DNA of 33,660 nucleotides from Candidatus Stahliibacteriota bacterium (GTDB lineage: Bacteria > Hydrothermota > Tepidihabitantia > SM23-42): positions 1-33,660 of the forward strand of contig JAUVZL010000030.1 in the NCBI GenBank assembly GCA_030602565.1. The letters run 5' to 3'. Shown one piece after another: positions 414 to 30,346 of this stretch. The notes under the pieces were generated by a model. It saw nothing but the letters and a program-made list of their open reading frames with translations, had not been told where the DNA came from and did no database searches. Position 1 is the first letter of the stretch. Each line of letters begins with the position of its first letter. Position numbers and translations under genes: made by a program.

Positions 414-521
414 CTATTTTTTAGCTCGATCAATCCACGCAGGAGGGATGTTCCCACCTCGCTTTTTCAAAATGAAGTAACCTTCTGTTACACTACCTTC
501 TGCAGCTTCATACAATCCCAT
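414..521 (-). CDS. small basic protein, 35 aa, last gene of the defence operon
   Basis: A short ORF beginning MGLYEAAEGS and ending IDRAKK-TAG. The start ATG (519-521) is preceded on the minus strand by AAGGAGG at ideal spacing, and the ORF lies only 14 bases after the stop of the Res gene, so it should be co-transcribed with it. The product is charged, with no transmembrane segment or Cys motif, and has a KKRGG patch near the middle. I recognise no family. The strong ribosome binding site and the operon position argue for real translation; the small size leaves doubt. Possible roles are a modulator of the restriction system or an antitoxin-like partner, both purely inferred. Confidence 0.55.
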   Translation of the reverse strand: MGLYEAAEGSVTEGYFILKKRGGNIPPAWIDRAKK

Positions 522-535
522 TTTTCCTCCTTATT

Positions 536-3340
536 TCATAGATCAAGCTTTTTTTGTTTATTTAATAAAGAAAAGAATTCTTTGAAACTCCCTGATGGAA
601 ATTTCGTTAAATTACTTGTTAGTGCCATATAATCGGTATACTTAACTTTCAAATATTGCCATTTGACTCCAGTTAGTTTTGATGCATCTTTGCACCACTC
701 TGAAGCCCTGGCGTCTTTTAATAGAATATCAGCGTGTTCCCATCCCTTGGTTTCAATGAGCCACATTGTGATTGAGCCATCGATTTTTTTCTGTTCAGCA
801 ACAAAATCTGGATAGTAGTAGGCGATTGCGCCTTTGCTGTTCAAATATTCAATTGAAAATTTGGTATAGGTTTCAGCTAGTTTAGCAAACTTAGTAATAT
901 CATTTGCTTCATCTAAAAACTTGGCAAAGTGTTTTTCAAAATCATTAAAACACGGCGTTATATTGAAAACTGTTTTATCTAACTCAGTCCAATCCCGTCG
1001 CCAATAAAAACCGTCAATTTCTAATAAACATAAAGGTTCTGATTTCAATTTTGAAATAGTCTTAGTAATACTAAGCTTTCCTATTTTTTTCGTCAAGGTC
1101 GAAACAATTTCATTGACATTTCGGGCATCTGTAAGAAGACGGCGAATATTTTCGTGTTCCATATCTATCTTCTGACCAAAGAAAATCTCCCTAATATATT
1201 TTTTTACGAGAGGATAAACTACTGCAAACTGTCCATCAATCCGTGCTTCTTTACAAACACGAGTAGTTAGATGACTCAAAATTTCGTTTATTTCAGGCAA
1301 GCCGGTATTAATTGTTACTTGCTTCTGTGCAACTACTTTCTCTGTTACAGTTTCCACCAACGAAACCTCTTTTGTCTTTACAGTAATCAATTTGAGACCT
1401 CTTGGATTAGATTGTAGTCCTTTAAGGATTGATGTATCTAGAGCATTGAATTCACGGGTGTGAGTGGGTGTAAGAATGGGTATTTCAATATCGTATTTAG
1501 CTTTGATTTTCATTGGATAAATATGCACACCTAATGGTGGTGGTTCTTTTGTGACGCCAACGCCGACCCCCTCTACTTCAAGCCCTTTGACAAATTCTTC
1601 AAACTTTTTAGTGCCGATAATCTCGACTATCTGGGTATAGTCTGGACCAACATTCTTCATCAAGCGTAGACCACGGCCAACTGACTGTTCGGGTAATATA
1701 TTTGCTTTTGCGGTGAATGGTCTAAGTCCCAAAACCACAGATACATTTCGGACATCCCATCCTTCGCGAAGCATCAAGACACTGACTATCGCTCTAATTT
1801 TGTTGTTTGGTAAATCGATAGACCGTGCTGCTTCACGTGCTTTGTCTAAATGCTTCTCAGTTACTTCGCCGGTTTTCTTGGTATGAATCAGAAGTAAACG
1901 CTCTTCTCTTTTAAATTCTGCCTTTTGTTTTAATGAAGCATAGATGTCATCAGCATCCTTTGTGTTTTCCGCCATAATAAAGAGAACTGGCTTAGAGCCA
2001 ACTTTACTGTAGGCTGTATAATGTTCTTTCCATCGCGAAATTGCGATATTTATCCAGTCTGCATATGCCACACTTGCCCGAGAATATTTTTCAGGATCGG
2101 CTTTATCTGTCTGATGAACAATCAGTGGCGCTTTCACAATACGATCTTCAATTGCCTGTGCTAATGGGTAGTCGCATAGAATCCACGGAAAAAATGTGCC
2201 ATTCTGATCTTTGGGCGTAGCAGTAAAATCTAATTGTAGAGAAAGCCTACTACTATAGGTTTCTTTCAAATTTTTTTGAAGATTCAAGATAACCTTATAC
2301 CACTCTAACTCGGTATCGTGAACATGATGGGCTTCATCGTTAATTATAAATAGATCTTTGTGTTCCTTAATTCTACCCAACATATCTTCTTGCCACGAAC
2401 CCGTGGAATCTTTCGGTTTAGGTCCTAACAGGCGATTGACTGGGTCATTTTCTCCACTGCCCTCTCGCCCTTCATATAACTGATGAATGTTAGTCAAATA
2501 TAGTGTTCCTTCTGTAGAAGTTTTTCGTGATTCTCCACGCATTATAAATGTCATCTGCCAGTCATGTTTCCATTCATGTGGAATCAAATCCCAATCATGA
2601 AATACCTTGCCATTTTCAAAATCTTCTTTTAGTCTTTCAAAAACAATAATGTTGGGAGCAATTATTAAAAATGATTTACTTAAAGATGAGCCTTTTTCGA
2701 ATTTTTTATGGAAGTAAGACCAAACCACAGCCATTGCCATAACAAGTGTTTTCCCTGACCCGGTAGCCATTTTTATTGCATAGCGGTAATGGTCAGGTTG
2801 AGGAAGCTCCTGCTGAGCAACAAGACCTGTTTCCGGAACAACCCGTGTCAGGATACGCTTGTCTCGTGCTGTTTCTTCAATCTTCTTTCGCGTGGTGAAC
2901 AAATCATCTTTATATGCTTCTGGATCCATGAAACGGAAAACAAGGTCAGCCGCATTTTTAAGTTTCTTTACTTCATATAAGAAAATAACAGTCTCAATTG
3001 CTTCTCTCTGAGCGAAATAATATTTGAATTCAAGTCCATCTGCATAATGGTGTGTTTCGTCAAACCACCATTCTAGTAAACGTAAGGATGTGTCAGAGAT
3101 ACCCGTAGGCGTTTTGTAGCCGTTGTCACGCCATTTATCTACATCCTTTCGTATCTGATTCACTAATAGAGTCTTACTTGGTCGGCGGTAATTCTTTACA
3201 AAATATCCACCCTTTCCATCTTTGACTAGATGTTGTGTTGGTAATGAATAAGCATCACGATTTGGAACTTCTGGCAGTCTTTGCTCCAATACAATAATGG
3301 GCCGGGGTTTAGGATATTTTGCTTTGAATTTCTTTCTCAT
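536..3340 (-). CDS. res: type III restriction enzyme, Res subunit
   Basis: Restriction and translocation subunit of a type III restriction-modification complex; with Mod it hydrolyses ATP and cuts unmodified DNA. Superfamily 2 helicase motifs are visible: Walker A MATGSGKT (about residues 191-198), DEAH box NDEAHH (334-339), motif III DFTATPKD (371-378), and a conserved LREGWDVRNV stretch further on. The C-terminus has a PD-(D/E)XK nuclease site, YPDFVAEQ (D845) followed by LIETKGWE (E863, K865). At 934 aa it is of normal length and intact. Its ATG overlaps the mod stop by one base (TAATG), so translation is probably coupled. It is the fourth gene of the helicase-radC-mod-res operon and ends in TGA. 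Confidence 0.95.
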   Translation of the reverse strand: MRKKFKAKYPKPRPIIVLEQRLPEVPNRDAYSLPTQHLVKDGKGGYFVKNYRRPSKTLLVNQIRKDVDKWRDNGYKTPTGISDTSLRLLEWWFDETHHYADGLEFKYYFAQREAIETVIFLYEVKKLKNAADLVFRFMDPEAYKDDLFTTRKKIEETARDKRILTRVVPETGLVAQQELPQPDHYRYAIKMATGSGKTLVMAMAVVWSYFHKKFEKGSSLSKSFLIIAPNIIVFERLKEDFENGKVFHDWDLIPHEWKHDWQMTFIMRGESRKTSTEGTLYLTNIHQLYEGREGSGENDPVNRLLGPKPKDSTGSWQEDMLGRIKEHKDLFIINDEAHHVHDTELEWYKVILNLQKNLKETYSSRLSLQLDFTATPKDQNGTFFPWILCDYPLAQAIEDRIVKAPLIVHQTDKADPEKYSRASVAYADWINIAISRWKEHYTAYSKVGSKPVLFIMAENTKDADDIYASLKQKAEFKREERLLLIHTKKTGEVTEKHLDKAREAARSIDLPNNKIRAIVSVLMLREGWDVRNVSVVLGLRPFTAKANILPEQSVGRGLRLMKNVGPDYTQIVEIIGTKKFEEFVKGLEVEGVGVGVTKEPPPLGVHIYPMKIKAKYDIEIPILTPTHTREFNALDTSILKGLQSNPRGLKLITVKTKEVSLVETVTEKVVAQKQVTINTGLPEINEILSHLTTRVCKEARIDGQFAVVYPLVKKYIREIFFGQKIDMEHENIRRLLTDARNVNEIVSTLTKKIGKLSITKTISKLKSEPLCLLEIDGFYWRRDWTELDKTVFNITPCFNDFEKHFAKFLDEANDITKFAKLAETYTKFSIEYLNSKGAIAYYYPDFVAEQKKIDGSITMWLIETKGWEHADILLKDARASEWCKDASKLTGVKWQYLKVKYTDYMALTSNLTKFPSGSFKEFFSLLNKQKKLDL

Positions 3341-5229
3341 TATGACTTTATCTCCAATAGTTTTGTAGTATCATTACCAAATATATCGATCACTTTAATC
3401 ATAATGCGACGTTTTTCCTTTGATTCATACTTATGACCATCAGATTTTAACTCAAGTTTACGCTCTTTGCGAGTTCGATAAGACTGCCACATATTATGGA
3501 ACGTGTCTTCATGCCAGTTCCAATCCACTGCCCAGTAATCAATGTAATCAGACCATTTTTTGATTTTTGACCGCACTTCTTCCGGAATCAAATCAAGATT
3601 TGGAATAGCAAAGTCTGTCAATTTAACAACAAATTCGCTATATCTATTTATTTTTACCTCTGCTTCTAAATATGCCAATTCATAGAAGGTGATATCTCCC
3701 TTTTCCACTGCTCTTGGATCCATTACATCTCGCGGTATATTAAACAATCTCAATTTTACACCACTGGATTTTGCCTCTTTCTCAACAACATCATGTAATC
3801 CCATTTCCCATTCCCAACCAAGAATATCTAAGGCATTTTGGTTGGATTTTTTGACCTCGCTTATTGCATCTTGTATTTCAGATAAAGTTACAGGTGAATC
3901 TACAGCACCAACATGTACTAGACGTTTCCCCTTCTTGCCATGGATGTATAACATACCACTAATGGATTCAGCATTGTAGAGCTTTAATATAAATTTAATA
4001 TACTCGTAAACTGGCAGCTGTTCCACACCACGTTTCTTAAAGGCTACGTCCTGCCAGTATTGTCGTTCATATTTGCCCAAATTCTGCACGACAAATGGCT
4101 TGCATCCTGCAATGTCTAACAGTCTTTTGCGGGTTGTGTGTATAGCAAAGCGACTTAAATCAGCCACAATCCATCGTCGACCTAATTTCTCTGCAACAGC
4201 AGCAGTTGTACCTGAACCACAAAAGAAATCAACAATGAGATCATTCTTTTTGGAAGTACTCTTTATTATTCTCTCTAAAAGAACCTCAGGTTTTTGGGTA
4301 GGATACTTCAAGTTCTCATAACTTGACCTTTGGATGTATGGTATATCAACCCAAACATCACTCATTAACACACCTTTCTTATCGGATAGGTACTGCTTTA
4401 AATGCAGCTTACCTCTCTTGTCTTCGTAAATTCTACCTTCATGTTTTAACCGTTTAATTGTTTTTTCTGAATAATTACGCAAAATTTGCAATCTGAATTG
4501 TCCTTTTTCATCTTCATATTGATACATTTTTAAAGTATTTGCAGAATATGGCGTATACTCTGGATTGAAGATCCCTGTTTCTCCTTTCTTATAGCAAAGT
4601 ATAGTATCGTGTAATCTAGCGAATTGACGCATTCCACCTTCAACGCCAGTTATGCCATGAGATCTTTTCCAGACTATTTCATTGCGAAGGTTGTTGTATC
4701 CAAATATCTCATCTAATGCTATTTTAATGTAGTGAGCAACTCTATAGTCAAGATGAACAAAAATTGTCCCATTGTCTGCTAATAATTCTCTCATCAACAC
4801 TAACCTCTCATACATCATTTGTAAATATGAATCTAAACTTTCCCCCCAAGTGTCCCGATATGCTTTCTCTTCTATTGCTGAAGGTTCTTTTACCCATTTG
4901 ACATCACCCACTTCAATTTTTACACTAAAATTTGCTCCAGTGGCAAATGGCGGGTCGATATATATTAGATCAATTTTGCCGGCAAATTCTTCTAAAAGAG
5001 AAGCCATAATGTATTTGTTATCACCCCATACAAGTCGATTATACCATGTGGTTTCAGATTTTGTTCTTACATCTTTAAGAAGCGGCATACTTTTTTCTTT
5101 TTCTCGTGTCGCTCGGCTTTCATTAATCGTTTCTATTGTTTGGAAAGGCAGAACTGTTTTTTCCACTTCGGTTTTCTTATTCTTCCAATAAAGACCAGTT
5201 GGTAAATTTTCAAATTTTTCTTCGCTCAT
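3340..5229 (-). CDS. mod: type III site-specific DNA methyltransferase, Mod subunit
   Basis: DNA methyltransferase that recognises the target site of the type III system and protects it, most likely by N6-adenine methylation. The catalytic motif IV DPPF is at about residues 92-95 and the SAM-binding motif I DFFCGSGTT at about 335-342, with YPTQKPEVLLERI just before it. Catalytic motif before SAM motif is the beta-class order expected of Mod proteins. Residues between them (about 180-300) and the C-terminal 250 residues would hold target recognition and Res contacts. Length (629 aa) is normal. RadC ends 11 bases upstream and res starts at the mod stop codon, so all three are in one operon. DPPF rather than the commoner DPPY is a mild variant. 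Confidence 0.95.
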   Translation of the reverse strand: MSEEKFENLPTGLYWKNKKTEVEKTVLPFQTIETINESRATREKEKSMPLLKDVRTKSETTWYNRLVWGDNKYIMASLLEEFAGKIDLIYIDPPFATGANFSVKIEVGDVKWVKEPSAIEEKAYRDTWGESLDSYLQMMYERLVLMRELLADNGTIFVHLDYRVAHYIKIALDEIFGYNNLRNEIVWKRSHGITGVEGGMRQFARLHDTILCYKKGETGIFNPEYTPYSANTLKMYQYEDEKGQFRLQILRNYSEKTIKRLKHEGRIYEDKRGKLHLKQYLSDKKGVLMSDVWVDIPYIQRSSYENLKYPTQKPEVLLERIIKSTSKKNDLIVDFFCGSGTTAAVAEKLGRRWIVADLSRFAIHTTRKRLLDIAGCKPFVVQNLGKYERQYWQDVAFKKRGVEQLPVYEYIKFILKLYNAESISGMLYIHGKKGKRLVHVGAVDSPVTLSEIQDAISEVKKSNQNALDILGWEWEMGLHDVVEKEAKSSGVKLRLFNIPRDVMDPRAVEKGDITFYELAYLEAEVKINRYSEFVVKLTDFAIPNLDLIPEEVRSKIKKWSDYIDYWAVDWNWHEDTFHNMWQSYRTRKERKLELKSDGHKYESKEKRRIMIKVIDIFGNDTTKLLEIKS

Positions 5230-5240
5230 TCTATCTCTCC

Positions 5241-5939
5241 TTAGTCTAAAATTCCATTTTTCCGATAACTATAAAATCCTTCATCTGTGATAATTAAATG
5301 TTCTTGTAGATTGATATTCACAGTTTGCAAGGCACTCTTGATTTGCTGTGTTACAGCATTGTCTTTCGCTGACGGTTCAGGTGAACCTCCCGGATGATTG
5401 TGCGCTATAATTACAGTAGTAGCGTGATGTTTCAAGGCTCCTTCCACAATTTTACGTGGAAAAGCTACTGCTTCTGAGACTGTTCCTTCGCTCAAATTTT
5501 CTGATTGAATAAGCTTATTTTTGCTATTCAGGTAAAGTACGCGCACAACCTCATTTTTTTTGCCGCCAATTAATGCTTTGCAATAGTCTATCAAATCGTC
5601 TAACTTCGTAAACTGGATTTCTTCATTTTCTGCCTTTTGTTCAAAATAATATCCAATTGTTGCACGCAATACCTTTAGAAATTGAGATGATCTTTCTTTA
5701 ATGCCTATAGTTTTTTGCAATTCTCTTAAATCGGCATTCAATACGCCGTGTAGATTCTTGAATTCTCGAAGCAGATTTCTGGCAATCGGTTTAGTGTCCT
5801 TATAAGGCAGGACGAAAGAAAGAAGTAACTCAAGCACTTCATAGTCGTGAAATGCCTTAAGGCCAGAATTTTCAAATCGCTTTCGGAGCCGTTCTCTGTG
5901 ACCTTCGTAGTCCTTCTTTATTTTTTCTTTTTTGGACAT
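5241..5939 (-). CDS. radC: RadC-like JAB/MPN domain protein
   Basis: 232-aa protein of the RadC (UPF0758) family: an N-terminal helix-hairpin-helix-like region (about residues 15-80) and a C-terminal JAB/JAMM metalloprotease-like domain with the zinc-binding signature HNHPGGSPEPSAKD (H180, H182, S190, D193). The biochemical role of RadC is unsettled despite its old name; members are frequent in mobile and defence islands. Here it sits between a helicase-nuclease and type III mod. Its first 22 bases overlap the 3' end of the helicase gene, and it is followed after 11 bases by mod. This points to a role within the operon rather than housekeeping repair. The family assignment is firm, the function is not. 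Confidence 0.93.
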   Translation of the reverse strand: MSKKEKIKKDYEGHRERLRKRFENSGLKAFHDYEVLELLLSFVLPYKDTKPIARNLLREFKNLHGVLNADLRELQKTIGIKERSSQFLKVLRATIGYYFEQKAENEEIQFTKLDDLIDYCKALIGGKKNEVVRVLYLNSKNKLIQSENLSEGTVSEAVAFPRKIVEGALKHHATTVIIAHNHPGGSPEPSAKDNAVTQQIKSALQTVNINLQEHLIITDEGFYSYRKNGILD

Positions 5940-8689
5940 ATTTTATTCCAATCACAGCCATTGCAGATTTTAACATTCCTAGGATTTCGATTGAACCGAC
6001 GTGTAGTTATACCTTTAATGGCATCAGATATGGTCTGCATTGCCAAATCTAACTGTTTAGGAGTAGTTAGTATCTCTACACGCTGCTGTTTTTCTTCGTC
6101 TAAGAAATGAACATAAGCTTTCTCCACATTTAATTTTAGAGCATCCCGGGCAGCAATCGTGTAAAGTTGCACTTGGAGAGTCAATTCTTCATCAGCTTTT
6201 CTCTCGTTGCCGGTCTTAAAGTCAATTATCTCAAGAATGTTTTCTTTTGTATTCTTTCGTTTTAGTAAGTCAATAGTACCATTAACCAAGGCATTATCTA
6301 AATCCATTTCAAAGGAACGCTCTGATTTTACTGATAATGTAAAATCTTCCCTCCACATTTCAAGATAACGTAGTGTACTTCGTAATGCGCTTCTTTTCAG
6401 CGTTTTTTCCTGTTCTCTTGCCGCATATCGTAAATAAAAGTATTCTTTCAATATCTCGGCAGCTTCTTCCTCAGAAGGAACTCCACCTGTTTTTTGTGCA
6501 TTTTTATGCAACAGATTTAGAATATTATGGATCTGTTTGCCGTAACCAAGTGCTTGCACGATAATTGGGTTGAATCCATAAATGTAGCGCATTTTGTAAT
6601 CATATTCACAGCGGATATAATCGCTAAGTTCTGAGTAATTAGTGGGGAACCGATAATCTTCGACAGATGGTTGAGGTTTCTTTTTTCTGCGTTTTGTTGG
6701 ATCTGAAATTGGTTTTGTAATACAGTATTTGTCTTCCAGCTCATTGAAAAATTCGGATGGTGTCTTTTTTCTTTTATGTGGGCCCGGATCTATTGAAGTG
6801 GTCACAAACAGAAACTTCTTGGATCTGGTTAACCCTACATAGAATAGTCTTCGTTCATCTTCTGTACTACCTGCGTACCTTTCGAAATCAAATTTGTCTG
6901 GATCAAGAAAACCTGCGGTTGTTACCTGTGGACTCCGCTCTATACAGTATGGCATGAAAACAACAGGAAATCCCAAGCCTTTTGTAGCATGTAATGTCAT
7001 TACTTGAACTGCATTTATGACGCGGGTAGGATCTTCTCCAGCACCAGCATCGTAGGAACCCTGCGCATAATGGATTATAAACCAACAAAATCTCTTTATA
7101 TCTTTTGGTGTACAATAAGTTCTGATACCTTCATAGTCTGAAATTGCTTGACTCAGCCTACCCAAATTGTACATTTGAGTCTCGTGTTCAACATTATGGA
7201 ATGCTTCATGTGACAAACCCAACATTATAAGAATATCTGCATACAAAGATTGCAGAGAAATCCGCGTTTTCTTTTTGACGCTTGCCTTCATTTCTTTCAA
7301 AGCTCGGACAAACTGATTTTTAGTCGGCAAAAGAAAGTGATCCTTAGCGCTGTGATAAATAGTATTCTCATCAGGAAGACCGAAACTGCTGGCAGTTATC
7401 CATATCTTTTCAAAATCACCCAAGTATGCAAATATACTAAAAATTACATCAACTTCAGATGTTTCAAAAAGACCACCAACACCAGAAACAGCATACGGAA
7501 TTTTATCCTTATCTAATGCTTCTAAATAGGACTTGGCATCATATCTTACGGAACGGAAAAATATCGCAAAATCTGAATAGGCTAATCCACGGATACTACC
7601 ATTTCTTTCAACCCACGCTGTTCCAATTAGTTCCTTAATTTTATCTACAATAAATTCTATCTCATCCTTTCGATCCTGAAACTCAACTTTGTAAATATCC
7701 CCGGCGTCTATTTTCGCCCTTGATGGCTTCATTGATTTCTTTAGTCTGCGGTTATTTTGTATAATAAGATTATTGCTAAGATTAATTATGCCATCTGTTG
7801 AACGATAGTTAGTTGAAAGTGGATAGGGAAAAACATTTTTGTATCTTTTCTTAAAAGTTATTATGTTCTCAATCGTTGAACCACGCCACTGATAAATTGA
7901 TTGATCGTCATCACCGACAACACAGAGATTACTACTGTTACCAGCTATTAGTTTAATCAACTTTTCTTGAATAGGATTTATATCTTGATATTCATCGACA
8001 GTTATGTGAGTAAATTTTCTTTTAACCTCAGCACGTATGGCTCTGTTATTTTCGAGCTTATCAACAGCAAGCGACATCATACTGCTGAAATCCAAGAGGC
8101 GCTTTTCGTGAAGTTTCTTGTCATAAGCCTGCAATGCTTCAAAAAATCCCCGGCATGCTGATATTTCTGTTGGTGGTATCATTTCTTCTCGCACTATGTC
8201 AATTCCACGGATTAACGTATTTGTTATCCAACTTTGTTTGGTCATACCATATGGCTTTCGTCCTCTATGTTTTTCTAACCAATTCAGCAAGTAAGAAAAA
8301 TTCAATTCTTTACGGATAGAACTCATAAATGCGTATCGCTTACCTTCTTCAAGCACATCGTATCCTCGAAATCCAGGGACATATTCTTTTAATAATTCGA
8401 AACAAAAGCTATGAATAGTACCGACGTACATATCACCAATATCGGGTTGGTGACCAATCAATTCTCTGATTTTACTCCGGATGCGAAACTTCAGTTCTTC
8501 AGCCGCTTTCTCTGTGAAGGTGAACGCTAATATATTTTCTGGCTTTGCCAAATTTTCAGCCACAAGATAAGCAACACGGGTTGAGACAAACTCAGTTTTT
8601 CCCGATCCCGCACAAGCAATAATCTGTAAATTACCATTGGTTAAGCGGGAATTTGTTTCCAATTCCTTGATTAGTTTATTTTTCAACAT
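5918..8689 (-). CDS. UvrD/Rep-type helicase fused to Fe-S PD-(D/E)XK nuclease
   Basis: 923-aa superfamily 1 helicase with a C-terminal nuclease. Helicase motifs: ACAGSGKT (Walker A, residues 25-32), VDEYQD (231-236), GDDDQSIYQWRG (259-270), an STNYRS motif III/IV region, VMTLHATKGLGFPVVF, and RRLFYVGLTRSKK. The C-terminal 230 residues carry a Cas4/AddB/RecB-type nuclease: C694, H721, D807, D823-x-K825 (IIDFKTG), a QVQLY motif, and closing cysteines C909, C912, C918, which with C694 would bind a 4Fe-4S cluster. It resembles a single-chain AddAB-like DNA end processor. Motif V reads GLGF where GLEF/GLEW is usual. It is the first gene of the defence operon, with a promoter at 8731-8758 and AAGG 7 bases before ATG. 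A role in degrading invading or cleaved DNA is inferred. Confidence 0.93.
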   Translation of the reverse strand: MLKNKLIKELETNSRLTNGNLQIIACAGSGKTEFVSTRVAYLVAENLAKPENILAFTFTEKAAEELKFRIRSKIRELIGHQPDIGDMYVGTIHSFCFELLKEYVPGFRGYDVLEEGKRYAFMSSIRKELNFSYLLNWLEKHRGRKPYGMTKQSWITNTLIRGIDIVREEMIPPTEISACRGFFEALQAYDKKLHEKRLLDFSSMMSLAVDKLENNRAIRAEVKRKFTHITVDEYQDINPIQEKLIKLIAGNSSNLCVVGDDDQSIYQWRGSTIENIITFKKRYKNVFPYPLSTNYRSTDGIINLSNNLIIQNNRRLKKSMKPSRAKIDAGDIYKVEFQDRKDEIEFIVDKIKELIGTAWVERNGSIRGLAYSDFAIFFRSVRYDAKSYLEALDKDKIPYAVSGVGGLFETSEVDVIFSIFAYLGDFEKIWITASSFGLPDENTIYHSAKDHFLLPTKNQFVRALKEMKASVKKKTRISLQSLYADILIMLGLSHEAFHNVEHETQMYNLGRLSQAISDYEGIRTYCTPKDIKRFCWFIIHYAQGSYDAGAGEDPTRVINAVQVMTLHATKGLGFPVVFMPYCIERSPQVTTAGFLDPDKFDFERYAGSTEDERRLFYVGLTRSKKFLFVTTSIDPGPHKRKKTPSEFFNELEDKYCITKPISDPTKRRKKKPQPSVEDYRFPTNYSELSDYIRCEYDYKMRYIYGFNPIIVQALGYGKQIHNILNLLHKNAQKTGGVPSEEEAAEILKEYFYLRYAAREQEKTLKRSALRSTLRYLEMWREDFTLSVKSERSFEMDLDNALVNGTIDLLKRKNTKENILEIIDFKTGNERKADEELTLQVQLYTIAARDALKLNVEKAYVHFLDEEKQQRVEILTTPKQLDLAMQTISDAIKGITTRRFNRNPRNVKICNGCDWNKICPKKKK

Positions 8690-8730
8690 GCTTACCTTAC
8701 TTGCTTAAATCTCCTCAATGCAATCATATC

Positions 8731-8758
8731 ATTATGCCCCAAAATCCAGAAAAGTCAA
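8731..8758 (-). promoter_or_regulatory. promoter of helicase-radC-mod-res operon
   Basis: On the minus strand, -35 TTGACT (8753-8758), 16-bp spacer, -10 CATAAT (8731-8736). Predicted start near 8724 gives a leader of about 35 bases with GAGGAG and AAGG before the helicase ATG. The same architecture with a 16-bp spacer recurs at other genes in the window. Confidence 0.6.
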
Positions 8759-8776
8759 GAGATTCAATGGTTTCCT

Positions 8777-8801
8777 AAAATAAAAAGGCATAGAAGCCTT
8801 A
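8777..8801 (-). terminator. Rho-independent terminator-like hairpin
   Basis: Stem AAGGC/GCCTT (8785-8789 with 8796-8800), six-base loop, followed on the minus strand by TTTTTATTTT. The stem is short, so termination may be partial. It separates the SEC-C gene from the helicase operon. Confidence 0.5.
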
Positions 8802-8866
8802 GGAGGGCGCAGGGAATGTAAATACGCACAACCTCAGACCACCATACCTTCTCGATGTTTCGTTCC
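8777..8866 (-). ncRNA. candidate small RNA, about 90 nt
   Basis: Between the SEC-C gene and the helicase operon a consensus promoter (TTGACA at 8895-8900, N16, TATTAT at 8873-8878, minus strand) is followed about 65 bases downstream by a hairpin AAGGC-TTCTAT-GCCTT and a T-rich tail (TTTTTATTTT). The only ATG between them is followed at once by a stop (MVV*), so the transcript would be non-coding. It contains GCCCTCCTAAGG, complementary to a Shine-Dalgarno sequence, just before the hairpin. Alternatively the hairpin simply terminates the SEC-C transcript and the promoter is fortuitous. No known RNA family recognised. Confidence 0.4.
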
Positions 8867-8872
8867 TGGTGT

Positions 8873-8900
8873 ATAATAGCAATTTGAAGACTATTGTCAA
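8873..8900 (-). promoter_or_regulatory. promoter in gap between SEC-C gene and helicase operon
   Basis: Minus strand -35 TTGACA (8895-8900), 16-bp spacer, -10 TATTAT (8873-8878). Eleven of twelve consensus positions match. It would read either the candidate small RNA alone or, by read-through, the helicase operon. Confidence 0.5.
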
Positions 8901-8932
8901 TTAGTACTAAAGGTTGTAAAAATATTGAATAT

Positions 8933-11356
8933 CTATAGCTTTATACGTCCACAGCATTTTTTATATTTCAGTCCACTACCACAGGGGCAGGGATCATTTC
9001 TCCTAATCTTCTTTTTGTCTGTAGATGCTCTATTAGCTTTCATTTCTTGAAAGATGCGTAATTCTGTTTCCATAGTTGAATCATATTGCCATGGATCAGA
9101 ATTGTAGAGCCATCCATGGATAATGTCATCTGAATGATCTGTGACCGTAAGAAAACTACACCATTTGTCTGCTTTTAACTGGTATTTCTTGATTTTTGAA
9201 TAATATTGTAACCGCTTGATATATTTATCACAGATACTATCACGTACAACAAACCATGTGAATCCTGTTTTCCCGTTTCCGATTGTCATCGTAAAGTCAT
9301 GGATTCTATTATCTTTTTTGGCACTACAGCTAGCATTAGTATACATTTCAATGAATTGGTTTCTTGCCGTATCATTCATATCTAATAATGCTTGTATGAC
9401 CTCAGTATAATAATTACCACCTTTTTCTTCAAGTATTAAGATCAGTTGTTTGAATGCGGTTGGCATTTCCTGCCGAGGTTTCGGTGCGGGTGTTTTTCTC
9501 TGACCCGTTTGATAAAGATAAAAATCGTCTAATTCGGTAGTATAGGTAAGCAATTGGTAGGAGTTATCAACATGAGGTTTGTTTTCAAAATAAAGCCCTT
9601 CTGTAAGGTAGCACATAAACCAATCTAATTCATCATGAGCTTCAATGTTGCCTAGTTCATTAATGCGTAATCGCCGTTTTAAGTAATGCAGCAATTGAGT
9701 GGGAAACTCTACCAGTTCAGAGATGACTTTTAAATCCAAATAGGATACAGCCCATGGTAGATCATTGTCAGTAAGAAATCCTATATTTTTCAGTTGAGAG
9801 ATATTAGTGATAAACACATCTAAAGGTTCTAGGGTTACTGTAACGAGTATAAATTTATCAATATTCTTTTTGGGAAACTTCCATAATTCATGTCCTTGCT
9901 TGAATATTGGGCGTTGGTTATCCTTAATATAATTTTTTGCCTTCAAGGTTTGTTCATGAGCTTCCGTTATTAACGAGTCAACATCCCTCTTTATGCGGTC
10001 AAAAAAGCCTTTTTTAGAACGTGGTGTCAATTCTCCACCTTTAACTTCAATCAAAAGGCAAGTACGATCAAAAATAACAAGGCCATCTAATTCATTCTCT
10101 TTGTACTTCAGTTTTTGATAAATAGTTGCTTTCGAATGAAAAATGGTTTTAAATAATCTCAATGATTCTTGTAATAAAAAGTCATGTCTATGGTTCTCGT
10201 AGTTGTGCCAGAATTGTATATCTTGTTTCATTTTTTCTTCAATTCTCGGTTTTAGAGCCCAAAAAAGCAATTGTGGAGAAGGACATAAAAAACCTGTGGG
10301 ATGCTTTATTATGGATTTTCTTTGCATTAAATGTACAGGCTCAGGCATATAGAAGTTTCTATCTACTTCCCCAAAATTTATAGTGAATAAATCTAAAAAA
10401 CTACTAACATTTGTCGATTTGCATTTGCTAATTGAGGTTAATTCGTATCCTGTGAACGAAAAAGTCGCTCCAAGATTTTGAAAAAGAAGATATATAGAAT
10501 ATTTTTTTAATTCATCTTCTTGTTTATGCATTGGTAGAGTACTTAAATAACTCAACATTTCTTTACATTTATTAGTTTCTGTAACATTAGAAGAATTATA
10601 GTGCTTCAAGTTATTAGATATTTTCGTAATTTCTTCCTCAATCAATTCTTTCTTTTTTTGTATTTTGTTGTTCATCAAATCCATTATTGAATGAGTACAT
10701 TGGATAGCACATTCTATTGAAAATCCTATGTTTTTTTGCATCCATTCAGCAGTACTCTTAATCTGAAACAGATTCAATAGCAATTCTTCGAGATGGTGGA
10801 AATAGCCAGGGTAACGAACATTTAGAAATCTTGATATTGCTTCCCACCTAAGTTTTTCAAGCGCTGTAAGCGGTTGCGAGCTATTAAGATTAATGTACTC
10901 TGTTGCATAAAACCACAATGTGAATCGGAATATCTTATCCAAGTGCTGATGGATTTCATTTACTTCTTTTCCAGTAACCGGAACTTCTTTTCCTCTATGA
11001 TATGTTTTTTTTAAACATAATAAACTGATATATTCAACAAAGGCTTGTCGCCCTTCGAAAGAATACTCTTTATAGGTTTCAGGATCATAAAATAAATTAG
11101 TGATTATCATATTTGCAATTATGTCTAATGGGTTATATTTAGATATTATGTTTTCTACTTCTTTACCTGCTGCTTTGATATCTACTGGATATTTCCCATG
11201 TAAATTAGCAAGGTTTTTCATGAGTGCTTTATGTTCGTCCTTATTAAGAATGTTTTTTATGAAAAAACACCCGTCTTTTTCACCCATGAAAAAAGGACCG
11301 AATCTTTGACCTTTGATTCCTGAATTGTTTTGTTCTTTTTCCGGTTGCTTCTTCAT
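8933..11356 (-). CDS. large PD-(D/E)XK nuclease-like protein with SEC-C zinc motif
   Basis: 807-aa protein of no named family that I recognise. Two landmarks are clear. Near residues 420-441 the stretch NELDGLVIFDRTCLLIEVKG has the spacing of a PD-(D/E)XK nuclease core (D424, E437, K439), preceded by a possible helix glutamate at E397, as in NERD/Mrr-like nucleases. The last 25 residues are a SEC-C zinc motif, NDPCPCGSGLKYKKCC (C790, C792, C801, C802). The N-terminal 390 residues look largely helical with no membrane segment. The gene precedes the restriction operon on the same strand and is probably a stand-alone defence nuclease. It has no clear Shine-Dalgarno; a promoter lies at 11372-11400, giving a leader of about 9 bases. 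The domain calls are solid; the biological role is inferred. Confidence 0.8.
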   Translation of the reverse strand: MKKQPEKEQNNSGIKGQRFGPFFMGEKDGCFFIKNILNKDEHKALMKNLANLHGKYPVDIKAAGKEVENIISKYNPLDIIANMIITNLFYDPETYKEYSFEGRQAFVEYISLLCLKKTYHRGKEVPVTGKEVNEIHQHLDKIFRFTLWFYATEYINLNSSQPLTALEKLRWEAISRFLNVRYPGYFHHLEELLLNLFQIKSTAEWMQKNIGFSIECAIQCTHSIMDLMNNKIQKKKELIEEEITKISNNLKHYNSSNVTETNKCKEMLSYLSTLPMHKQEDELKKYSIYLLFQNLGATFSFTGYELTSISKCKSTNVSSFLDLFTINFGEVDRNFYMPEPVHLMQRKSIIKHPTGFLCPSPQLLFWALKPRIEEKMKQDIQFWHNYENHRHDFLLQESLRLFKTIFHSKATIYQKLKYKENELDGLVIFDRTCLLIEVKGGELTPRSKKGFFDRIKRDVDSLITEAHEQTLKAKNYIKDNQRPIFKQGHELWKFPKKNIDKFILVTVTLEPLDVFITNISQLKNIGFLTDNDLPWAVSYLDLKVISELVEFPTQLLHYLKRRLRINELGNIEAHDELDWFMCYLTEGLYFENKPHVDNSYQLLTYTTELDDFYLYQTGQRKTPAPKPRQEMPTAFKQLILILEEKGGNYYTEVIQALLDMNDTARNQFIEMYTNASCSAKKDNRIHDFTMTIGNGKTGFTWFVVRDSICDKYIKRLQYYSKIKKYQLKADKWCSFLTVTDHSDDIIHGWLYNSDPWQYDSTMETELRIFQEMKANRASTDKKKIRRNDPCPCGSGLKYKKCCGRIKL

Positions 11357-11821: not shown

Positions 11822-12169
11822 CTACTGTTTATCTTGCTCCAGAATCTCTTTCATTTGCTGTTTCAACTTAGGGAGTTCCTTTTTTATAATATGCCATATA
11901 ATTGCCAAGCTTATACCAAAATACTCGTGCGTGATTCTATTTCTCAAACCAATGATTGCCTGCCAGTCTACATCCTTATATGCGCCTTTAATACTATCCG
12001 GAACATACTTAGATGCTTCACCAATAATCTCGAAGTTCCTTACTACGGCATCGATTGTCTTTCTATCCTTTTTAAAATCGTCAAAACTATAAACTGCGAT
12101 GTATTCTTGAATATATTTGATGCTCTCAAGGATATCTTCGATGAATAACTGCCAGTTCCGTCTAGACAT
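11822..12169 (-). CDS. hepT: HepT-like HEPN ribonuclease toxin (DUF86)
   Basis: 115-aa HEPN-domain toxin of the MntA/HepT system. The catalytic RX4HXY motif is present as RNRITHEY (R76, H81, Y83). In characterised pairs HepT is an RNase silenced when MntA adds AMP to the tyrosine of this motif. The conserved NFEIIGEASK and DWQAIIGLRN stretches are typical. The gene overlaps mntA by 8 bases and is second in the operon. It lies between the RAYT-derived element and mntA, in line with the many mobile and defence features here. Full length and apparently intact. Confidence 0.92.
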   Translation of the reverse strand: MSRRNWQLFIEDILESIKYIQEYIAVYSFDDFKKDRKTIDAVVRNFEIIGEASKYVPDSIKGAYKDVDWQAIIGLRNRITHEYFGISLAIIWHIIKKELPKLKQQMKEILEQDKQ

Positions 12170-12452
12170 TTATTAAATTTTCTTTAATGTATTCCAAACG
12201 ATTCGGTTTTATAGCATCTTCGGTTGTTAAATCAACTGGCATGCCAAGAATCTCCTCTAAAAAATCAGCCAAGTGGATGAATTCAAAACCAACTGGTTCA
12301 GCGAATTCAACCATCACATCTAAATCACTATTTACGCTGTAATCACCCCTAACATAGGAGCCAAATAATCTTATACTGCTGATTTTAAACCGCCTTCTTA
12401 ACTCTGATTTATGTTCAGCCAATATTTTCTTAATTTCTTCAAGGCTCTTCAT
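12162..12452 (-). CDS. mntA: MntA-like nucleotidyltransferase antitoxin
   Basis: 96-aa minimal nucleotidyltransferase. The GSX10DXD catalytic motif is complete: GSYVRGDYSVNSDLD (G31, S32, D43, D45). In this family the enzyme transfers AMP to the HEPN partner and neutralises it. It starts with ATG and has no Shine-Dalgarno; the predicted transcription start is about 2 bases upstream, so the message is probably leaderless. Its 3' end overlaps hepT by 8 bases, coupling antitoxin and toxin translation. A palindrome between -35 and -10 suggests autoregulation. Confidence 0.92.
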   Translation of the reverse strand: MKSLEEIKKILAEHKSELRRRFKISSIRLFGSYVRGDYSVNSDLDVMVEFAEPVGFEFIHLADFLEEILGMPVDLTTEDAIKPNRLEYIKENLINV

Positions 12453-30140: not shown

Positions 30141-30170
30141 AAAAAAAGGTCGGGCAAATAGCCCGACCTT
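30141..30170 (-). terminator. Rho-independent terminator for kinase-hsp20 unit
   Basis: Perfect 10-bp stem AAGGTCGGGC/GCCCGACCTT (30146-30155 with 30161-30170), five-base loop, followed on the minus strand by seven T. It lies 200 bases beyond hsp20, with the palindromic element copy 2 between gene and terminator. Confidence 0.8.
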
Positions 30171-30346
30171 AACAGGCTGACTGAGAATTAGGAGTAGGGC
30201 GTTTACGCCCGTATTTGGGGAGTGCAATGTCTCCTGACATTGCATGCAACGAGAGGTCTCGTTGCACTCCACATTTAACGAGCCTAAAGGCCTGCACGCA
30301 GACAGGCTCTACTCCTATAAATTTCGGAATTCTCGGTCAGCCTGTT
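30171..30346. repeat. palindromic interspersed element, copy 2 (176 bp)
   Basis: Same family as 201-324: 18-bp terminal inverted repeats (30171-30188 and 30329-30346; outer TT/AA extends them), the GGAGTAG/CTACTCC inner pair and the GGGCG-TTTA-CGCCC hairpin. It has an extra segment of two back-to-back hairpins (GCAATGTC/GACATTGC and TGCAACGAGA/TCTCGTTGCA) and a longer loop in the GAGCCT/AGGCTC hairpin (insert CTGCACGCAGACAGG). Non-coding. Confidence 0.8.

Follow-up and report, generated by a model that had tools for sequence, protein, structure and literature searches.

A type III restriction-modification locus encoding RadC and a helicase-nuclease in a Candidatus Stahliibacteriota genome

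Proteins in which a UvrD helicase is fused to a Cas4-like nuclease are most often encoded next to type III mod and res genes, sometimes together with a Schlafen-like ATPase-HTH protein, and an ancillary role in defence has been proposed for them (Hudaiberdiev et al. 2017, PMC5704561). That study, in which the word RadC is absent, inferred that the UvrD-Cas4 fusion arose once. Here, a 33,660 bp stretch of DNA from a Candidatus Stahliibacteriota bacterium (contig JAUVZL010000030.1 of GenBank assembly GCA_030602565.1; hereafter the window) was found to carry genes for a fusion of this kind (HelNuc), RadC, a type III methyltransferase (Mod) and its restriction partner (Res) packed into one operon. 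The host genome is a 2.74-Mb bin of 104 contigs that is 96% complete. From the gene content it is probable that the operon specifies a type III restriction-modification (R-M) system with a dedicated DNA-end processor.

Association of HelNuc and RadC with one Res clade

A Res alignment was used as the sole query in a scan of 84,980 species genomes, so that neighbouring genes were unselected, and the 80 best loci were analysed. These were divided into group A (loci scoring 1100 tblastn bits or more against the representatives, with 63-100% identity to the nearest) and its sister clade, group B (mostly BPTD_3080-like, 33-39%), the cut being chosen after a gap between 1161 and 846 bits had been seen. 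Counts were restricted to loci with at least 5 kb of upstream sequence, leaving 29 in group A and 28 in group B. HelNuc was encoded at 26 of the group A loci and RadC at 22 (both at 20, either at 28), several of the missing RadCs being at contig ends, and neither was found at any group B locus (28/29 versus 0/28; Fisher 2e-15). Two of the group A loci, L070 and L078, had first been found via HelNuc, as seed loci L041 and L040; loci from the same phylum cannot be treated as independent samples; and a locus inside clade A in the Res tree that has neither gene (L058) was counted in group B as it fell below the bit cut. These caveats leave the contrast between the groups unchanged.

The gene set was found in about 15 phyla, namely Armatimonadota, Myxococcota, Spirochaetota, Latescibacterota, Gemmatimonadota, Actinomycetota, Chloroflexota, Acidobacteriota, Pseudomonadota, Planctomycetota, Caldisericota, Nitrospirota, Bipolaricaulota, Neomarinimicrobiota and WOR-3, the host phylum including bins labelled 'candidate division WOR-3' (the label of L078, which is locus G106). 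The complete set is also present on two IMG/VR contigs (L188/L267 and L194), and a plasmid search for clade A Res found none, the best match having 33% identity. In the host phylum, clade A Res is encoded in 4 of 147 genomes, and HelNuc and RadC are present in all four, in G115 on another contig end.

A search of the same 147 genomes with HelNuc identified the arrangements RadC-HelNuc-Mod-Res (G106, L040), RadC-HelNuc-X-Mod-Res (G116, L041) and RadC-HelNuc-X-contig end (G115, L042), where X is a slot for a HATPase-type protein. The second of these is the usual order, and in most type A loci the end of RadC overlaps HelNuc by 4 bp, an overlap counted in 15 loci. The window and locus L089 (Neomarinimicrobiota) share the order HelNuc-RadC-Mod-Res with no X, and in L089 there is a 4-bp overlap between the HelNuc TGA and the RadC ATG at 7452. 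Where X is occupied, it encodes either a protein with sacsin and NOV_C domains or one with AlbA/DUF4062, HATPase_c_4 and winged helix-turn-helix (wHTH) domains. DUF1016/YhcG nucleases, TIR-TPR proteins or PIN-like proteins were seen in single loci or a few.

The occupants of this slot raise an alternative in which they, HelNuc and RadC are second-layer sensors or effectors, triggered for example by phage DNA ends or proteins, that share an operon and the marking of self with the R-M core. Sacsin-NOV and AlbA/DUF4062-HATPase-wHTH proteins, and the occasional TIR-TPR, PIN and DUF1016 proteins, are typical regulatory or effector modules, and RadC carries a JAMM site. However, the slot is empty in the window and in about a third of the loci, and HelNuc resembles end-processing enzymes, making this alternative unlikely.

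A chance gathering of the genes in a defence island, with no functional link, was also considered. RadC and UvrD proteins are common, defence genes cluster, and the host genome has other type III-like loci bearing mod as well as a RadC-Mod operon. This explanation is highly improbable and was rejected on the clade A and clade B counts; the conservation of gene order with 4-bp overlaps across phyla, the common origin of the system RadCs and the replacement of HelNuc by a non-orthologue within the same operon (see below) also stand against it. A previous sequence-only reading of the window had suggested that the helicase-nuclease and RadC work with restriction, and had proposed a search for conserved synteny. 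The Res-only scan answers that proposal and, with the single RadC origin and the recurrent 4-bp overlaps, lends strong support to the core of the suggestion, that HelNuc and RadC go with this mod-res pair.

The four proteins and the surrounding sequence

Mod matches Pfam N6_N4_Mtase (2e-46), its best PADLOC model is MTase_III (1.7e-123), and it also matches the EcoP15I Mod structure 4ZCF (E 4e-19). It has the motifs DPPF (residues 92-95) and FCGSGT (336-341), and DPPF and the motif I glycines are retained in 29 of 29 sequences. Conservation is mostly 0.7-0.93 outside residues 151-330 and 0.03-0.6 inside them, with a minimum at 241-270. The fall, from about 0.8 to 0.03-0.4, is confined to the target-recognition region (about residues 181-330), which is the pattern of exchangeable target recognition. 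Res matches Pfam ResIII (1e-20) and, weakly, RE_endonuc (0.026); its best PADLOC model is REase_III (3.8e-18), it matches NF046055 at 5e-82, which is below the cut-off of that model, and no match by sequence was found in the PDB. It includes a Walker A lysine (K197), a DEAH box (335-338), a QxxGRGxR motif and nuclease residues D845, E863 and K865; these are kept in 39 of 39 clade members, except that K865 is present in 38, with one change from K to R. The adjacent mod and res genes, the beta-class motif order in Mod (DPPY/F before FxGxG) and the superfamily 2 (SF2) motor and C-terminal PD-(D/E)XK nuclease of Res place the pair, by sequence, among the type III R-M systems. The window Res groups with those of L089 and L056 inside clade A.

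At some other loci, additional small open reading frames (ORFs) adjoin this pair. PIN-like ORFs, VapC-like by eye, lie directly 3' of res in L086 (12850-13260), L087 (12844-13251) and L093 (12808-13266), and in L075 and L084 mod and res flank a nucleotidyltransferase-like ORF of 111 amino acids (aa).

HelNuc matches Pfam UvrD-helicase (2e-61), PDDEXK_1 (6e-26) and Cas_Cas4 (1e-7), and has the architecture of the UvrD-Cas4-like fusions of a superfamily 1 (SF1) UvrD helicase with a pfam12705/Cas4-like nuclease. It scores 35.9 bits against the curated Cas4 model TIGR00372 (cut-off 65) and is thus not a CRISPR Cas4. Its helicase motif residues (K31, D232-E233, R622), nuclease residues (D807, D823, K825, Q839, Y843) and iron-sulphur (Fe-S) cysteines (C694, C909, C912, C918), the latter of the kind found in AddB and Cas4, are identical in 27 of 27 system HelNucs. 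An AlphaFold model of HelNuc (pLDDT 60) was discarded and not used.

The HelNucs of the window and L089 sit elsewhere in the helicase tree than the HelNucs of the other systems (type A), and forcing the two together costs 292 log-likelihood units (approximately unbiased test, p 6.6e-25, on a quick tree). RadC, Mod and Res have therefore remained associated while the helicase-nuclease beside them was exchanged or acquired independently, and this swap is evidence of a functional need for a helicase-nuclease. Plasmids of cultured bacteria carry relatives of both HelNuc groups next to methyltransferase-SF2 helicase pairs or to MspI- and MvaI/BcnI-type R-M genes. Elsewhere in the host genome, an 898-aa ORF in contig C53 (L007:460-3156) encodes a UvrD helicase fused to a Ser/Thr protein kinase domain, and relatives, of which the UvrD part was compared, have UvrD matches in frames of about 840-930 aa.

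RadC matches Pfam RadC (7e-40) and TIGR00608 (154.6 bits; cut-off 133.85) and belongs to the UPF0758/RadC JAMM family (HxHx...S/TxxD). Its JAMM residues E130, H180, H182 and D193 are conserved, and the His-His-Asp set is found in 20 of 21 aligned sequences, the exception being L086. An AlphaFold model (pLDDT 86) has a helix-hairpin-helix (HhH) and a JAMM fold, and Foldseek matched it to RadC 2QLC (E 2e-11) and, with a probability of 0.98 but an E of 0.26, to the HhH of Hef 1X2I. The predicted catalytic residues are thus intact in each of the four proteins.

The 24 system RadCs, including that of the window, form one side of a 100/97 branch that separates them from 25 other RadCs of the phylum, a tree indicating that the system RadCs share a single origin. 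The window RadC is not a housekeeping copy, as the two other RadCs of the host lie in different clades, outside that of the system. A wider R-M association was not seen for the sister RadC clade, whose members, in the loci inspected, mostly stand alone. A second packed operon, on host contig C51 (L045:7206-16430), begins with a different RadC, followed by a type III-like Mod, an SMC/AAA protein, an AlbA-HATPase protein and a ResIII helicase; most of its junctions are 4-bp overlaps, and it is possibly an independent pairing of RadC with Mod.

The features of the window are listed in Table 1. HelNuc and RadC overlap by 22 bp, RadC and Mod are separated by 11 bp, Mod and Res overlap by 1 bp, and 14 bp lie between Res and the micro-ORF. 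The five packed same-strand ORFs of the sequence-only reading agree with this layout to the base at all four junctions, and the domains it had assigned (UvrD with an Fe-S Cas4/AddB-like nuclease, RadC, Mod and Res) agree with Pfam and PADLOC. Its inclusion of the micro-ORF in the operon did not hold up: this is a real ORF preceded by AGGAGG, but it is not conserved. No relative was found in L056 and L089, two loci that share its Res subclade, or elsewhere in the host genus, so that it was rejected as a conserved subunit and is probably outside the system; it lies 413 bp from the window edge.

Table 1. Coordinates of the operon and neighbouring features in the window
Feature	Coordinates	Strand	Description
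HelNuc	5918-8689	-	923 aa; UvrD/PcrA-type SF1 helicase fused to RecB/Cas4-type PD-(D/E)XK nuclease, 4-Cys (Fe-S) motif
RadC	5241-5939	-	232 aa; helix-hairpin-helix N-terminus and JAMM metalloprotease-like domain
Mod	3340-5229	-	629 aa; beta-class type III DNA methyltransferase
Res	536-3340	-	934 aa; SF2 ATPase and C-terminal PD...ETK nuclease motif
Micro-ORF after res	414-521	-	35 aa; AGGAGG before ATG
Intergenic region upstream of HelNuc	8690-8932	-	Terminator-like hairpin 8800-8785, then promoter-like TTGACT-16-CATAAT 8758-8731 (consensus matches only)
SEC-C/NERD gene	8933-11356	-	807 aa; weak NERD nuclease-related domain and C-terminal SEC-C motif
Nucleotidyltransferase and adjoining ORF	11822-12452		PADLOC PDC-S09; adjoining ORF of 115 aa, HEPN-like by eye
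Repeat of about 146 bp	185-330 and 30169-30346		Complementary ends (GACAGGTTGACCGAGAAT / ATTCTCGGTCAGCCTGTT)

The SEC-C/NERD gene upstream of HelNuc was rejected as a fifth member, as it is absent beside L089 and has no full-length relative in the genus. Further upstream of the operon, the nucleotidyltransferase and its adjoining ORF are likely to form an MNT-HEPN toxin-antitoxin pair. One copy of the repeat lies just downstream of the operon; it gave 58 matches in a search of the host genome, about 10 of them nearly full length, and resembles a miniature inverted-repeat transposable element (MITE).

A possible role in processing DNA ends

In the proposed system, Mod, with Res, would methylate an asymmetric site and mark self DNA, and on unmodified invading DNA ATP would switch on the Mod-Res complex and Res would cut, as expected for the type III family, whose members hemi-methylate such a site and need ATP and two inverted sites for cleavage. 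The domains and synteny of HelNuc suggest that its UvrD-type 3'-5' helicase and its nuclease would then load on the cut end, unwind the DNA and degrade it, with the effect that the break would be neither religated nor used in recombination. Such degradation of DNA cut by Res is plausible. RadC, with its HhH DNA-binding part and JAMM metal site, may act in the same step, and among the roles that these domains tentatively suggest, the most likely are the removal or processing of proteins at DNA ends, or control of HelNuc or Res.

Several observations weigh against this proposal. Intact mod and res genes occur without a full HelNuc in L065 (a 112-aa remnant), L088 (RadC kept) and L080 (both genes gone), so HelNuc is accessory rather than obligatory, and both genes are also missing from L058. 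The host has another UvrD-PDDEXK protein (L008) that could in principle degrade restricted DNA, and the three-gene plasmid trios that were inspected (see below) have no RadC in their annotated neighbourhood. In a group of N4-methylcytosine (m4C) type III systems, an upstream helicase-like ATPase is dispensable for methylation and for in vitro cleavage (PMC8259958); however, that helicase is of the SF2 type and is not homologous to HelNuc, and the system is only distantly comparable.

The loss of both genes from some loci with intact mod-res would also fit a dispensable helper of another kind, namely a host safety or repair module in which HelNuc and RadC limit or repair self-damage when Res cuts under-methylated host DNA. 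RadC has an HhH part and was historically named as a protein of DNA repair, a process in which UvrD/AddA-family helicases work. However, the nuclease centre and Fe-S cysteines of HelNuc are strictly kept, as expected of a degrading enzyme, and its relatives accompany unrelated R-M types on plasmids, as a generic helper in attack would. A safety or repair role is thus not very likely, and a dedicated end processor within the R-M system remains the preferred interpretation.

RadC occurs very widely in bacteria and, to our knowledge, has no assigned function. In about 15 phyla it is tied, through synteny and phylogeny, to a single lineage of restriction enzymes, which links it to defence against foreign DNA, and if RadC is an obligate part of such a class of restriction systems, this would be the first defined job for the family. 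The natural switch between two helicase-nucleases within this operon points to end processing as a real part of the defence. The loci that have lost HelNuc provide natural controls, and the operons can be tested in a laboratory strain.

Comparison with known systems

The helicase of Gabija, GajB, is a UvrD-like helicase in phage defence and accounts for most of the best PADLOC matches of HelNuc, but GajB has no fused nuclease, and the PADLOC scan found no GajA, the OLD nuclease encoded beside GajB, among the locus proteins. The YprA-family DUF1998 helicase of DISARM, Druantia and ARMADA had no match in any locus protein. HelNuc has an SF1 helicase and a RecB-family nuclease in common with AddAB/RecBCD and AdnAB, but is a single polypeptide encoded in an R-M operon, with no partner helicase subunit.

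The locus resembles EcoP15I and related type III systems in its beta-class Mod with a variable target region and in the SF2 motor and PD-(D/E)XK nuclease of Res, and differs in having two extra conserved core genes and a Res from a divergent clade. In the systems with a Res like that of the BPTD_3080 family (clade B), Mod and Res are 34-47% and 33-39% identical, respectively, and HelNuc and RadC are absent from 28 of 28 loci. Plasmid trios in Enterococcus, Nitrosomonas, Phaeobacter and Blastomonas, which encode a helicase-nuclease, a methyltransferase and a TnsA-N or DEAD helicase protein, have the same HelNuc-Mod-Res order and packing. Their HelNuc is sister to type A HelNuc, and their Res, unlike that of the window, has a TnsA-like nuclease domain.

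The family described previously (PMC5704561) is among the closest, sharing a UvrD helicase fused to a pfam12705 nuclease and encoded with Mod and Res. The sequence-only reading had known of no named system with this gene set, and none was found, but a UvrD-Cas4 fusion beside type III mod and res is already part of that description. No published account was found of RadC as a constant partner, of the sacsin/NOV slot or of the helicase swap, in a search with most subscription journals outside it, so that earlier naming is possible; papers mentioning RadC with type III restriction, judged by titles and mention counts, included none on such an operon. The locus differs from the described family in that RadC is the constant partner of one Res clade and that sacsin-NOV proteins occupy the Schlafen-like slot. 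A single origin was inferred for the fusion; the HelNucs of the RadC systems, to which the comparison was confined, were rejected as one clade. It can be suggested tentatively, with rather less than even confidence, that these loci form a distinct and widespread restriction class in which RadC, as a JAMM protease that binds DNA structures, is obligate beside a helicase-nuclease and a sequence-specific type III core, with the HelNuc slot open to two non-orthologous enzymes. As predicted from its genes, the system is the known trio of UvrD-Cas4, mod and res with the addition of a lineage-specific RadC.

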